A stretch of DNA of 64,000 nt from Paracoccus indicus. Its GTDB lineage: Bacteria > Pseudomonadota > Alphaproteobacteria > Rhodobacterales > Rhodobacteraceae. Under the pieces are notes generated by a model. The model did not search any database. It was not told where the DNA came from and saw only the letters and a program-made list of their open reading frames with translations. Within the stretch, counting starts at the first letter, position 1, and each line of letters opens with the position of its first letter. Positions 36,210 through 44,101 of this stretch are shown in pieces. The position numbers were made by a program, and so were the translations under genes. The stretch is from NCBI RefSeq assembly GCF_003056335.1, contig NZ_PYWA01000002.1, positions 372,001 to 436,000 of the forward strand, in the 5' to 3' direction.

Positions 36210-37403
36210 TCAGCCCTTGACCGCTTTCACGATCTTTTCGGCCGCATCCGACAAGTCGTCGGCCGCGATCACGTTCAGACCGCTGCCCGCGATGATCTCT
36301 TTGCCCAGTTCGACGTTCGTGCCTTCCAGACGGACGACCAGCGGGACCTGCAGGCCGACTTCCTTCACGGCGGCGATGATGCCCTCCGCGATGATGTCGC
36401 AGCGCATGATGCCGCCGAAGATGTTGACCAGGATGCCTTTGACGTTCTGGTCGCTGGTGATGATCTTGAAGGCCTCGGTGACCTTTTCCTTGGTGGCGCC
36501 GCCGCCGACATCCAGGAAGTTGGCAGGCTCGGCGCCCTTCAGCTTGATGATGTCCATGGTGGCCATGGCCAGGCCCGCGCCGTTCACCATGCAGCCGATC
36601 TCGCCGTCCAGCGCGATGTAGTTCAGGTCGAACTTCGAGGCTGCCAGTTCCTTGGCGTCTTCCTCGGTCTCGTCGCGCAGGGCCATGATGTCGGACTGGC
36701 GATAGAGCGCGTTGTTGTCGAAGCCCATCTTGGCGTCCAGGCACTTGATGTTGCCTTCGGGCGTCACGATCAGCGGGTTGATCTCCAGCATCTCCATGTC
36801 CTTGTCGATGAACAGGCGATACAGGTTCTTGACCAGGGCCACGCATTGCTTGACCTGCTGGCCTTCAAGGCCCAGGGCAAAGGCGACGCGGCGGCCGTGG
36901 AAGTCCGACAGGCCCGAGGCGGGATCGACGCTGAAGCTGACGATCTTCTCGGGGGTGTTGGCGGCGACTTCCTCGATGTCCATGCCACCCTCGGTGGAGG
37001 CCACGAAGGACACGCGGCTGGTCTGGCGGTCGACCAGCAGGGCCAGGTACAGCTCGCGGGCGATGTCCGAACCGTCCTCGATATAGATGCGGTTGACCTG
37101 CTTGCCGGCAGGGCCGGTCTGATGCGTGATCAGCGTGCGGCCCAGCATCTGGCGGGTCAGTTCCTCGGCTTCCTCGACCGATTTGGCCAGGCGGACGCCG
37201 CCCTTCTCACCGGCTTCGGCTTCGGCGAAATGGCCCTTGCCGCGACCACCTGCGTGGATCTGCGCCTTCACGACCCAAAGCGGGCCGTCCATCTCGCCCG
37301 CGGCGGATTTGGCTTCGTCGGCCTTGGTCACGATGCGACCTTCGCTGACGGGCGCGCCGTATTGACGCAGCAGCGCCTTGGCCTGGTATTCGTGGATGTT
37401 CAT
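36210..37403 (-). CDS. sucC: Succinyl-CoA synthetase beta subunit
   Basis: SucC carries the nucleotide-binding ATP-grasp fold and the succinate site. The 397-residue protein has family length, beginning [19 protein letters not shown], with [42 protein letters not shown] and [18 protein letters not shown] precedes the ATG. It opens the sucCD-lipoprotein-odhAB series and has its own regulatory region: a double TGTGATCACA element at 37514-37544, 111 bases upstream. An AT-rich stretch at about 37460-37495 may hold the promoter. Confidence 0.97.
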
Positions 37404-37513
37404 CTCGACCCCCTCATTCGGTTCGACAGATTTGGCGGTGTTGTGGCATACCTTGGGGCACCACTAAAACGATTTTCCCGTAAAATTCCAAAAAGCGGCG
37501 GGTTCCTGCTTGA

Positions 37514-37544
37514 TGTGATCACATGAATTCTACGTGTGATCACA
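37514..37544. promoter_or_regulatory. Double TGTGATCACA operator upstream of sucC
   Basis: Two identical perfect 10-base palindromes TGTGATCACA lie at 37514-37523 and 37535-37544, spaced 21 bases (two helical turns) start to start. The same pair with the same spacing lies before sdhC. The sequence is of the GntR/FadR type. In R. sphaeroides the GntR-family protein AkgR directly activates TCA-cycle genes, so an AkgR orthologue is the leading candidate. The 11 bases between the palindromes differ from the sdhC site, which supports selection on the palindromes. Confidence 0.75.
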
Positions 37545-37596: not shown

Positions 37597-38772
37597 TCAG
37601 TTCAGCAGCAGCATGTAGAGACCGGCCCGCCCGCCGAACATCGACAGGAACCCGTCCCAATTGTCGCCGCCCACGGTCAGTCCAGGGCGGGCATAGGGCA
37701 GGGCGGCCGTTCCCTGCACCCAAGCGGTCACATCGACAGGCTGCGGGTCCTGCAGCCATTGGTTCAGATCGATCCCGAAGCCCGGGGCGAAGCGCCAGAA
37801 GGGGATCAGCATCTTGCCTTGCAGGGCCTGATCGACCTCTTCCAGCAGAGCCATCCACTGGGGTCCGGTCCCCTGCGGCAGATCGAAGCCCAGGGCTGAC
37901 TTCTGGGTATCGTTCGGGATCCATTCGCGGTCGTCGTCATCCTCTTGCGCGACCAGCGTCCAGAAGTCGCGGTTGGCGGCGATCATCTGGCGCAGGTGGT
38001 CGCGGGCCTGCCGCGTCAGGGTGGGGTCGGGCTGGTGCCGCAGGGTCTGCAGGACCACGGCAACGCGGTCTATGATCGGCCCGAAGGCCTGGGCCTGCAT
38101 CTGCATGTTGGGCGCCCGCGCCATCTGTCCCGGCGGTTCTGCGAATTGGCGCGTCAGCTCCTGCTGCAGGGCGATGTGATCGGCCAGCGCCGGCGTCGGG
38201 TCGAAGGCCAGCGTCAGCGAGGCGACGGTCTGGATCAGATGGGTATAGGCCCGCAACCATTCGACATCGGCGCGGTCGAAGCGGATGACACGCGGCCCCT
38301 CGGGCCGGGGCAGGCCCGCCAGGTCCGCCAGCGCCTCGGAGGGGGCGCGGCTGCCGTCGCCGTCGATGTCCAGCCAGAGGTCGTCCAGATCCAGCACCAG
38401 CGCCGCATCGTCCGTCGGCATCTGGTCGCGGGTTGCCTGCATCGCATCCGACAGATCGGTCATCAGCGTTGCGATGACATCGGCGGTCATCGGCTGCGGG
38501 TCGGGATTGGCAGGCAGGGGCGCGCCCAGCAGGGGCAGGGGCACCAGCGGGTCCGTCGCCCCGATCCGCCAGCGGGTCTGGAACGCCGTCTGCGCGGTGT
38601 GAAGGAAAGTCACGGCGGACAGCGCCATGTCTCGGTCGGGGGAGGCGGGCTGCTCGACCAGCGTCTGCGCGGTCGCGGTGATCCCGTCCCGTGCGATCAT
38701 CCCCGAGGTGGTGGTGTCATCGGCAAGCGCGGGGCTTGCGATCAGTGTCATTGCAGCAAGCAGGCGGCGCAT
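37597..38772 (-). CDS. Secreted protein of unknown function with an EF-hand-like loop
   Basis: A 391-residue exported protein. MRRLLAAMTLIASPALA is a short signal peptide cleaved near residue 17. The mature protein is mostly helical, with no membrane span. Residues 135-146 (DIDGDGSRAPSE) match the spacing of a calcium-binding EF-hand loop (D1, D3, D5, G6, E12), although position 8 is Arg where a hydrophobic residue is normal. Later a Trp-rich C-terminal part includes PFWRFAPGFGIDLNQWL and GLTVGGDNWDGFLSMFGG. It lies between mdh and sucC on the same strand, separated from mdh by a terminator-like hairpin. I do not recognise a family. Confidence 0.72.
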   Translation of the reverse strand: MRRLLAAMTLIASPALADDTTTSGMIARDGITATAQTLVEQPASPDRDMALSAVTFLHTAQTAFQTRWRIGATDPLVPLPLLGAPLPANPDPQPMTADVIATLMTDLSDAMQATRDQMPTDDAALVLDLDDLWLDIDGDGSRAPSEALADLAGLPRPEGPRVIRFDRADVEWLRAYTHLIQTVASLTLAFDPTPALADHIALQQELTRQFAEPPGQMARAPNMQMQAQAFGPIIDRVAVVLQTLRHQPDPTLTRQARDHLRQMIAANRDFWTLVAQEDDDDREWIPNDTQKSALGFDLPQGTGPQWMALLEEVDQALQGKMLIPFWRFAPGFGIDLNQWLQDPQPVDVTAWVQGTAALPYARPGLTVGGDNWDGFLSMFGGRAGLYMLLLN

Positions 38773-38792
38773 CGGGGATGTCCTGACATGGA

Positions 38793-38820
38793 AACGGCGC
38801 GCCAAACATGGCGCGCCGTT
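38793..38820 (-). terminator. Terminator hairpin after mdh
   Basis: AACGGCGCGCC / GGCGCGCCGTT is a perfect 11-bp stem around a six-base loop, 25 bases past the mdh stop. On the minus strand it runs into TTTCC. It separates mdh from the secreted-protein gene. Confidence 0.75.
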
Positions 38821-38844
38821 CCGCAAGCTGCAAGCGTCAGGCGA

Positions 38845-42244: not shown

Positions 42245-42450
42245 TGCCCACCATCTATCGTTTCATCACCGAGGATGACACCGTGCAATTCTGCCACCGT
42301 GTCTCCGAGGCGCTCTCCAAGGGCTGGACGCTGCAGGGCGATCCTTCCATGGCCTTCGATGCCGCGCGGGGCGTCATGCGCTGCGGGCAGGCCGTCACCA
42401 AGGTGGTCGATGCCGAATACCATCCCGATATGAAGCTGGGGCAGCAATGA
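42244..42450 (+). CDS. DUF1737 domain small protein
   Basis: A 68-residue soluble protein, MPTIYRFITEDDTVQFCHRV, then SEALSKGWTLQGDPSMAFDA. DUF1737 proteins are short and of unknown function. A GGAGGT lies before two adjacent in-frame ATGs (42241 and 42244), and spacing favours the second. The stop overlaps the mch start in ATGA, so the gene is translationally coupled to mesaconyl-CoA hydratase. Confidence 0.8.
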   Translation: MPTIYRFITEDDTVQFCHRVSEALSKGWTLQGDPSMAFDAARGVMRCGQAVTKVVDAEYHPDMKLGQQ

Positions 42451-43499
42451 CCAAGACCAATCCGGGCCGCTTCTTCGAGGATTACACCTTGGGGCAGGTC
42501 ATCCGCCACGCCGTTCCCCGCACCCTGGCCGAAGGGGAAAGGGCGTTCTATCACGCGCTTTATCCCATGCGGCATGCACTTCATTCCTCGGATGAATTTG
42601 CGATCGCGGCGGGGCTGGATGGCAGCCCGCTGGATGATCTGCTGACCTTCCATACGGTCTTTGGCAAGACGGTCCCCGACATCAGCCTGAACGCGGTGGC
42701 GAACCTCGGCTATGCCGACGGGCGCTGGCTGCAACCGGTCTGGCCGGGCGATACGCTGCGGGCGGAAAGCCAGGTGATCGGGCTGAAGCAGAATTCGAAC
42801 GGGCAATCGGGCGTGGTCTGGGTGCGGACGCGCGGGTTGAACCAGGTGGATGAGCCGGTGCTGGAATTTGTCCGTTGGGTCATGGTGCGCAAGCGCAATC
42901 CCGGCAGCCCCGCGCCGGAAACCGTCGTCCCCGATCTGCCCGACGCCGTGGATGCCGCCGATCTGGCCATCCCCGAGGCGCTGGACTTCAGCGACTATGA
43001 CTTCAGCCTTGCGGGCGAGCCGCATTGCTGGGGCGATTACGCCATCGGCGAACGCATCGACCACGTCGATGGCGTCACCGTCGAGGAGGCCGAGCATATG
43101 TTGGCCACGCGCCTCTGGCAGAACACCGCCAAGGTGCATTTCGACGCCACCAACCGCGATGATGGCCGCCGCCTGATCTATGGCGGGCATGTCATCAGCA
43201 TGGCGCGGGCGCTGTCCTTCAACGGTTTGGCCAATGCGCAGATGATCGTGGCGCTGAACGGCGGCGCCCATGCCAACCCCTGTTTTGCGGGCGACACCAT
43301 CCGCGCCTGGTCCGAGGTGCTGGACAAGGCCGAGACCGGGACCCCCGGCGTCGGTGCCATCCGCCTGCGCCTGGTCGCCACCAAGGGCGACAGCGCGCAG
43401 TTCACCCTGCGTGGCGCGGACGGTAAATACGCCCCCGAGGTGCTGCTGGATCTGGATTACTGGGCGCTGATGCCCATGAACGGCGATTCAGTTCACTAG
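42447..43499 (+). CDS. mch: Mesaconyl-CoA hydratase (MaoC-like)
   Basis: A 350-residue double hot-dog enzyme of the MaoC family. It would hydrate mesaconyl-C1-CoA to beta-methylmalyl-CoA in the ethylmalonyl-CoA pathway for acetyl-CoA assimilation. The N-terminal half begins NPGRFFEDYTLGQVIRHA. The second half starts near CWGDYAIGERIDHVDGVTVE and includes the MaoC-like LIYGGHVISMARAL. Length and its place between an Mcl2-like gene and sdhC match the R. sphaeroides enzyme. Other pathway genes (ccr, ecm, mcd) are not in the window. A few bases beyond its stop lies the double operator for sdh. Confidence 0.88.
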   Translation: MTKTNPGRFFEDYTLGQVIRHAVPRTLAEGERAFYHALYPMRHALHSSDEFAIAAGLDGSPLDDLLTFHTVFGKTVPDISLNAVANLGYADGRWLQPVWPGDTLRAESQVIGLKQNSNGQSGVVWVRTRGLNQVDEPVLEFVRWVMVRKRNPGSPAPETVVPDLPDAVDAADLAIPEALDFSDYDFSLAGEPHCWGDYAIGERIDHVDGVTVEEAEHMLATRLWQNTAKVHFDATNRDDGRRLIYGGHVISMARALSFNGLANAQMIVALNGGAHANPCFAGDTIRAWSEVLDKAETGTPGVGAIRLRLVATKGDSAQFTLRGADGKYAPEVLLDLDYWALMPMNGDSVH

Positions 43500-43511: not shown

Positions 43512-43542
43512 TGTGATCACACGCGTTGCCCGTGTGATCACA
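43512..43542. promoter_or_regulatory. Double TGTGATCACA operator upstream of sdhC
   Basis: Perfect palindromes TGTGATCACA lie at 43512-43521 and 43533-43542, again spaced 21 bases start to start as at sucC. The spacer (CGCGTTGCCCG) is unrelated to the sucC one. The site lies 167 bases before sdhC. Between it and sdhC, GTGACA (43589-43594) with CAATAA about 17 bases on is a weak promoter candidate. A GntR-family activator such as AkgR is the likely binder. Confidence 0.75.
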
Positions 43543-43708
43543 AAGGCGGAAATCCGCGGCATTTCACCGCGCGGGGTGGTATCTCTCCGTGACAGGTGAC
43601 AGTATCACGATCAATAAAGACGCCAATCGCCAGCCCGCGCGGCCAGCCCACGTCAGTCATCGGGCACCTGCGACGGGACATGCCAGAACCGACATAGGAG
43701 GGCCGACC

Positions 43709-44101
43709 ATGGCCGACGTGAACCGGGGTAACCGGCCGCTTTCCCCCCACCTTCAGGTCTATCGTCTGCCGTTGCCGGCAATCACGTCCATCATGACGCG
43801 CATCACCGGCCACGCGCTGGTCGCGGGCATCCTGCTGCTGGTCTGGTGGCTGGTCGCCGCCGTCAGCAGCCCCGGCGCCTTCGCCGCCGCCGACTGGCTG
43901 GTGCGGTCCTGGCTCGGCTTCCTGATCCTGACGGCCTCGGCATGGGCGCTGTGGTTCCACGCACTGTCGGGTATCCGCCACCTGTTCTACGATCAGGGCC
44001 TGGGCCTGGAAATCGAGGAGGCCAAGAAGGCTTCCTGGGCAATCATCATCGGTTCGGTCGCGTTGACGCTGCTTAGCCTGATCATCTTCTTCATCAGCTG
44101 A
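43709..44101 (+). CDS. sdhC: Succinate dehydrogenase cytochrome b556 subunit
   Basis: SdhC is a membrane anchor of complex II, binding heme b and ubiquinone with SdhD. The 130-residue protein starts MADVNRGNRPLSPHLQVYRLP, matching the family's 'RPLSPHLQIY' signature. It has three membrane helices, with the heme-ligand His in WFHALSGIRHLFYDQG. TAGGAGGG precedes the ATG. The open frame upstream to 43589 lies in the leader and is rejected as start. It opens sdhCDA-(three genes)-sdhB. Confidence 0.95.
   Translation: MADVNRGNRPLSPHLQVYRLPLPAITSIMTRITGHALVAGILLLVWWLVAAVSSPGAFAAADWLVRSWLGFLILTASAWALWFHALSGIRHLFYDQGLGLEIEEAKKASWAIIIGSVALTLLSLIIFFIS

Follow-up and report, generated by a model that had tools for sequence, protein, structure and literature searches.

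Tandem palindromes and phased A/T tracts upstream of sucC and sdhC: a probable double operator of an AkgR-like activator in Rhodobacteraceae

Two pairs of palindromes preceding sucC and sdhC in a 64,000-nt stretch of the Paracoccus indicus genome (the window, meaning this whole stretch) bear on the control of TCA-cycle flux in these bacteria. Excerpts of a study of P. denitrificans (PMC11323563, 2024) state that TCA genes controlled by CceR in R. sphaeroides are not under its control there and suggest different mechanisms. Here we ask which protein could read the palindromes and how it could act on the promoters, and we offer a candidate regulator together with its putative operators, and a promoter layout seen in 253 of the 294 genera sampled.

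Palindrome pairs in the window, the genome and the family

The sequence-only reading of the window had reported twin pairs of exact palindromes with a 21-base step before sdhC and sucC, and our scan confirmed their coordinates. The exact palindrome TGTGATCACA occurs four times in the window, a count reached in 0/100 dinucleotide shuffles (mean 0.09). Matches with up to two mismatches numbered 18 against a chance mean of 20.4, so the exact sites alone stand out. Both pairs have an 11-bp spacer and therefore a step of 21. The sdhC operator consists of a distal palindrome (43512..43521), the spacer (43522..43532) and a proximal palindrome (43533..43542). It begins 12 bp past the stop of an ORF at 42447-43499, called mch in the sequence-only reading, and precedes sdhC, the cytochrome b556 subunit gene (43709..44101, plus strand). 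The sucC operator, with its distal palindrome at 37535..37544, spacer at 37524..37534 and proximal palindrome at 37514..37523, lies about 110-141 bp 5′ of the start of sucC, which encodes the succinyl-CoA ligase beta subunit (36210..37403, minus strand). The 409-aa ORF at 37597-38826, upstream of sucC, had no Pfam or NCBIfam match at E 0.001.

In the whole genome the exact palindrome occurs six times, the four copies of the window plus two singles. The first single (C12:48609, L001:1501-1510) lies 5′ of a gntR-type gene. The second (C32:50756, L006:1501-1510) overlaps a small ORF at its stop codon; a one-mismatch copy is found 363 bp from it (around position 1864 of L006, C32:51119), between the small ORF and the end of a glnA-like gene that was named by reading, not by search. 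The tandem with an 11-bp spacer and up to three mismatches was recovered from the 3,505,879-base genome only at the sdhC and sucC places, with zero matches of the reversed-pattern control. An excess of matches inside coding regions or before unrelated genes, which the sequence-only reading had named as evidence against the operator, was thus absent. The shuffles and the reversed-pattern control reject a chance origin of the pairs. We also rejected a CRP-like site, as the palindrome reads TGTGA-N0-TCACA and lacks the 6-bp spacer of CRP sites.

Single palindromes with one mismatch are more frequent (34 in the genome of the window). We inspected 29 of them using a crude ORF filter; 13 were within predicted genes and the rest 5′ of assorted genes, no further TCA gene was recognised among the 29, and chance could account for these sites. 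The reversed-pattern control was set aside here, as the reversed pattern contains CTAG, a tetranucleotide that is rare in such genomes. Two of the one-mismatch sites of this genome (G000) lie 31 bp 5′ of a periplasmic binding protein gene (L257) and 71 bp 5′ of an ABC permease-like gene (L236), both gene names being given by reading.

We then searched 295 genomes of the family, representing 294 genera, for TGTGATCAC-N{0,30}-GTGATCACA. At least one pair was present in 254/295 genomes and most of them have two, while the reversed-pattern control was zero among the family rows listed. In a class-wide draw 7/337 genomes had a pair; five of these belong to the same family, which leaves 2/332 outside it, and the reversed pattern gave matches in two genomes (10 and 1). 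The two out-of-family pairs, L210 (G308) and L211 (G405), have steps of 22 and 24. The former lies near an ORF that reads as an outer-membrane receptor, and no gene was recognised at the latter.

To follow the arrangement, 57 regions with listed coordinates (two of them out-of-family) and 17 loci with degenerate pairs were fetched. The core GTGATCAC was intact in 93 pairs. Apart from the two from outside the family, 81 have a step of 21 and 10 a step of 20. Among the 91 in-family pairs, 89 precede sucC or sdhC, and the distance from the core to the start codon is 80-191 bp. One tandem pair (L188, G177:C4:93431) is situated 5′ of sucA instead of sucC; this locus and L182, to which no gene was assigned, were left out of the sucC and sdhC sets. 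The held-out set comprised 36 more genomes, picked for exactly two exact pairs each, and its 72 pairs (66 with step 21, 6 with step 20) were divided evenly, 36 before sucC and 36 before sdhC. The step was thus 21 or 20 in 91/91 fetched and 72/72 held-out pairs, the fixed whole-turn spacing expected of a cooperative operator. Taking all 163 in-family pairs together, 161 precede sucC or sdhC, and none departs from these two steps despite the permitted 0-30 bp. The claim that the spacing places both sites on the same face of the helix was in this respect borne out.

Genomes reached via named loci gave a similar result, with a pair in 11/12 and 16 pairs in total, all with step 21 (11 before sdhC, 5 before sucC); P. 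versutus, one of these 12, had no pair free of mismatches. Eight genomes carry three or more pairs; 9/27 of these pairs have other steps (12 to 35), so other spacings occur as extras. Genome G285 carries three palindromes with steps 21+21 (L244/L252, C18:4906-4957) before a gene reading as sucC, a natural triple operator. The spacers had been described as unrelated. Their sequences do differ, but the 11-bp spacers of the family have a common A/T-rich centre, the middle position being A/T in 88% of 51 sucC spacers and 63% of 30 sdhC spacers, with mostly C/G beside the palindromes.

A GntR/FCD regulator and its own promoter

The gntR-type gene at C12:48628-49269, about 360 kb from the pairs in the genome of the window, encodes a protein of 214 residues with GntR and FCD domains (PF00392 and PF07729, both above cut-off). 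The GntR match starts at residue 13. No NCBIfam equivalog reached its cut-off for this protein, and the nearest solved structure by sequence is E. coli McbR.

At E 1e-30 the gene was found in 274/295 family genomes. Exact pairs were absent from 18/21 genomes without it and from 23/274 with it (p 8e-15). After a relaxed search with 3 mismatches, applied only to the 41 genomes without an exact pair, a pair was present in 263/265 genomes with a strong orthologue and in 8/30 without one (Fisher p 1.8e-24), the strong/weak boundary of about 1e-65 having been set after viewing the list (G248 with 1.3e-70 strong, G281 with 3.4e-60 weak) and the lists of pairless and gntR-less genomes compiled by eye, with G264 counted as gntR-less by elimination. 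As the genomes of one family are related, the Fisher and Wilcoxon values, those for the held-out set included, overstate independence. The exceptions are few in both directions. Among the 24 genomes in which the relaxed search found no pair either, 22 also lack a strong gntR, and the completeness of the other two is 73% (G147) and 71% (G166). A pair without a strong gntR was seen in eight genomes: G096, G264, G273 and G033 (73-77% complete), G256 (93%), G019 (91%), G114 (100%) and G209, whose pair has 3 mismatches. Moreover, among the 60 genomes with both coordinates listed, 26 have the gene and the pair on one contig, and in 19 of the 60 the distance is at most 25 kb (4.9-23 kb).

We take the R. 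sphaeroides GntR protein RSP_0981 to be AkgR. In the part of PMC4344238 covered here, RSP_0981 is predicted to control RSP_0967-6, RSP_0974-6 and RSP_0965-62, that is, succinyl-CoA synthetase, succinate dehydrogenase and alpha-ketoglutarate dehydrogenase, and the proximity seen in our 19 genomes agrees with the neighbouring tags RSP_0962-0981 given there. An excerpt of PMC6365646 lists GTGATCAC as the motif among the binding sites of the activator AkgR and credits it to Imam 2015. In our case there are a GntR/FCD protein, four copies of GTGATCAC in the window and pairs before the suc and sdh operons, as expected of AkgR operators. The sequence-only reading had assigned the tandem to AkgR as a direct activator; the domains, co-occurrence, synteny, own-promoter site (see below) and the partly covered literature fit this identity of the putative binder and activator.

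The single palindrome at C12:48609 sits between a TTGAC and the gntR ATG, ending 9 bp 5′ of the latter. With at most one mismatch it was present at 79/80 named loci, nearly all from Paracoccus or Thioclava, where it most often begins 18 bp 5′ of the start codon; only 13/30 gntR loci of a broader family sample have it. The start of TTGAC precedes the palindrome by exactly 17 bp in 84/92 measured cases. By these distances the palindrome covers the stretch from a −35-like box to the start codon. A usual transcription start would fall approximately at the ATG, and the geometry suggests a leaderless, self-repressed transcript.

Phased A/T tracts and promoter distances

The features that bear most on the mode of action, phased A/T tracts and whole-turn promoter spacing, were absent from the sequence-only reading. 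When the sequences were anchored on the operator and oriented to the gene, A/T peaks appeared around 2, 12, 22, 32 and 42 nt past the core of the proximal palindrome before both sucC (n=57) and sdhC (n=34), and in this first set a comparable pattern was absent on the far side of the operator. As the rhythm had been noticed post hoc, we fixed the positions of peaks and troughs and scored the 72 new promoters. The phase score was above zero in 72/72, with means of 0.53 and 0.53, and it was maximal at register 0 and minimal half a turn off. The mirrored upstream side of the same promoters showed a weak trace, with scores of 0.10 and 0.12 and positive values in 25/36 and 28/36 (p 0.007 and 0.001, subject to the relatedness noted above).

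Wherever 70 nt of sequence were available, the score was positive in 91/93 for sucC and 68/70 for sdhC. The 10-bp power per sequence was 5.28 and 4.60, whereas A/T-matched random segments drawn from the same loci gave 1.50 and 1.70; by this measure the upstream side (1.74 and 1.58) was indistinguishable from these segments. The phase is identical in both operons, with a phase concentration R of 0.87 each. The peaks tolerate either base; for example, nt 11 in sucC is T in 30 and A in 26 of 57 sequences, so A/T-ness is kept rather than a particular base. TpA accounts for 7-8% of the A/T steps within the tracts, compared with 12-15% upstream, as in bendable A-tracts. In the window, the sdhC array (AAA, AAAT, ATTT, a gap, TAT; 43542..43585, plus strand) scores +0.53 and the sucC array (37465..37514, minus strand) +0.60, and all 16 pairs from named genomes are positive (range 0.13-0.84).

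A two-box fit to the sdhC promoters returned CGTGAC with a weak TA-rich −10. GTGAC starts 58-61 nt past the core in 50/70 sequences. In eight of the remaining 20 it starts at 48, 48, 69, 72, 79, 79, 80 and 81, each deviating by at most 2.5 bp from one or two full turns off the mode, and 12 have no GTGAC between nt 30 and 100. Where found, the GTGAC −35 of sdhC thus usually sits at whole-turn distances, a regularity that was spotted post hoc and comes from the eight off-mode sequences, two of them from Paracoccus (the window and G023). Extra copies occur at 38, 55 (window) and 87, and the last two are off whole turns. In P. denitrificans DSM 413, where an exact pair precedes sdhC, the GTGAC is at 48. 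The candidate −35 of sdhC in the window, GTGACA (43589..43594, plus strand), also lies 48 nt past the core, about one turn nearer than the commonest 58-61, and the second GTGAC is 7 nt beyond it. It is followed after 16 bp by a weak candidate −10, TCAATA (43611..43616, plus strand); the two-box fit picked AATAAA with a longer spacer instead.

For sucC, a −35 of TTTA type is found at 47-49 in 64/93 sequences, about one turn nearer than in sdhC. The candidate in the window is TTTAGT (37463..37468, minus strand), in line with the family consensus, which starts with TTTA. Counted from the inferred starts, the dyads of the two palindromes would be at about −85/−106 in sucC, at −98/−119 in most sdhC promoters and, by arithmetic from the candidate −35, at about −86 (proximal) and −107 (distal) in the sdhC promoter of the window. 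These positions are offset by about half a turn from the classical class I series of CRP, and this argues against a simple CRP-like contact.

A/T tracts of UP elements lie at about −42 and −52. The sucC promoters have such an arrangement, with peaks around 42 and 32 nt and the −35 at 47-49 in the 64/93 sequences. Regarding sdhC, the corresponding stretch at about −42 (nt 51-54) has an A/T fraction of 0.33-0.59 and the nearest peak is one turn further up. As sdhC has no tract nearest its −35, a plain UP element does not explain both promoters.

Proposed mode of action and related systems

We consider it probable that the tandem palindromes form a double AkgR operator from which two dimers, bound along one helical face, activate sucC and sdhC, aided by the shape of the intervening DNA. 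The putative AkgR orthologue, encoded elsewhere (C12:48628-49269), would bind, presumably with an effector, as one dimer per GTGATCAC palindrome, and the 20-21-bp step would set both dimers on the same face and favour their cooperation. They would activate both genes from upstream positions roughly 85 and 106 bp away from the inferred start. The A/T tracts, spaced one turn apart from the operator to the −35, could bend the DNA and/or form an extended UP-like track for the alpha-CTD, and so let a far-upstream regulator act on RNA polymerase. Binding to the single palindrome between TTGAC and the gntR start codon would repress the gene in a negative feedback. A single site would thus mean off, and a double site with the A/T array on. 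Recurring in most of the sampled genera, the layout looks like a conserved way to switch on central metabolism.

The strongest competing explanation, which we regard as a serious though lesser possibility, is that AkgR binds the pair and the A/T tracts are independent of it, being a strong UP element, intrinsic curvature or IHF/HU-like sites. It overlaps with the double AkgR operator on the operator itself, so the probabilities of the two do not add up to one. The tracts could also serve IHF, HU or another regulator. With a −35 box starting at −36, the sucC tracts would fall near −42, −52, −62 and −72, and this is the register usual for the alpha-CTD. Phased A-boxes with alpha-CTD binding are also described at H. 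pylori sabA in the portion of PMC4081817 covered here. However, the phase relative to the operator is equal in both promoters although the −35 of most sdhC genes is about 11 bp further away, and the tracts, which set in at the edge of the operator, are far weaker on its upstream side.

Repression is common among GntR regulators, and the own-gene site sits in a core promoter region. AkgR could accordingly repress sucC and sdhC from the double operator, e.g. through looping or by obstructing an upstream activator, and excerpts of PMC8012715 show NanR binding as three cooperative dimers and repressing. We nevertheless find repression unlikely, as the proximal dyads, about 85-98 bp upstream of the inferred start, are clear of the promoter, the single own-gene site is the only one whose position would block polymerase, and PMC6365646, in the excerpt cited above, names AkgR an activator.

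A role of CceR half-sites (GTT-N6-8-AAC) in generating the 10-bp A/T rhythm is highly improbable. Succinate dehydrogenase is also a target of CceR (RSP_1663) in R. sphaeroides according to the covered parts of PMC4344238 and PMC11323563, but the latter places these genes outside the P. denitrificans regulon. Moreover, the half-sites are present in only 4/93 sucC and 3/70 sdhC arrays, no more than in shuffles, and the phase score is nearly unchanged without them, so CceR was rejected as the source of the rhythm. That the palindromes persist by chance or shared ancestry without function has a negligible probability: all genomes are from one family, but palindromes, step and A/T phase are retained where spacers and flanks have been scrambled, and a strong gntR is missing from 22 of the 24 genomes that lack even a relaxed pair.

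On top of the double AkgR operator, we put forward with more reserve, and at somewhat unfavourable odds, a promoter design conserved in the family. It would combine a double operator of an FCD-GntR protein with 4-5 phased A-tracts, the distance between operator and promoter would shift mainly by whole turns, and polymerase would be reached not by touch but via shaped DNA (wrapping or an alpha-CTD track). The gene of the regulator itself, with one site and no array, would be shut off by the same protein.

The regulator, its motif and its targets are largely known or predicted already for R. sphaeroides. AkgR (RSP_0981) is, by the partly covered sources, alike in its GntR family, the motif GTGATCAC, the predicted targets and the neighbouring locus tags, and neither a tandem nor a 20-21-bp step nor an A/T array is mentioned in the same parts of its literature. 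Our literature search, which took in sources other than the primary AkgR study and its supplements, likewise met no mention of the tandem architecture or the A/T array, and a literal search for TGTGATCACA returned no relevant paper by title. The A/T tracts that extend from the pair to the promoter at intervals of about 10 bp, in the same phase at both operons, are new here. In the portions of literature covered, there are precedents for the parts (NanR, constant-distance GntR sites, phased A-boxes) and none was found for the combination.

E. coli NanR on (GGTATA)3 is similar in that adjacent dimers of GntR type bind cooperatively and in a spacing-sensitive manner (PMC8012715, in part). It differs in being a repressor on three direct repeats whose cooperativity depends on a 32-residue N-terminal extension, whereas the GntR match here starts already at residue 13. 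Double GntR sites at a near-constant distance in divergons were also read as cooperative pairs (excerpts of PMC4494728), but those are intergenic regions between divergent regulator and target genes, while here two structural operons carry the pairs and the regulator gene is elsewhere. Finally, UP elements and phased A-boxes (H. pylori sabA; E. coli) resemble our arrays in that their A/T tracts recur every 10 bp 5′ of the −35 (PMC4081817, in part). In contrast to the sabA A-boxes, the tracts described here are conserved in the family and phased to the double operator of a regulator. Helical phase and DNA shape would be conserved between a distant operator and its promoter.
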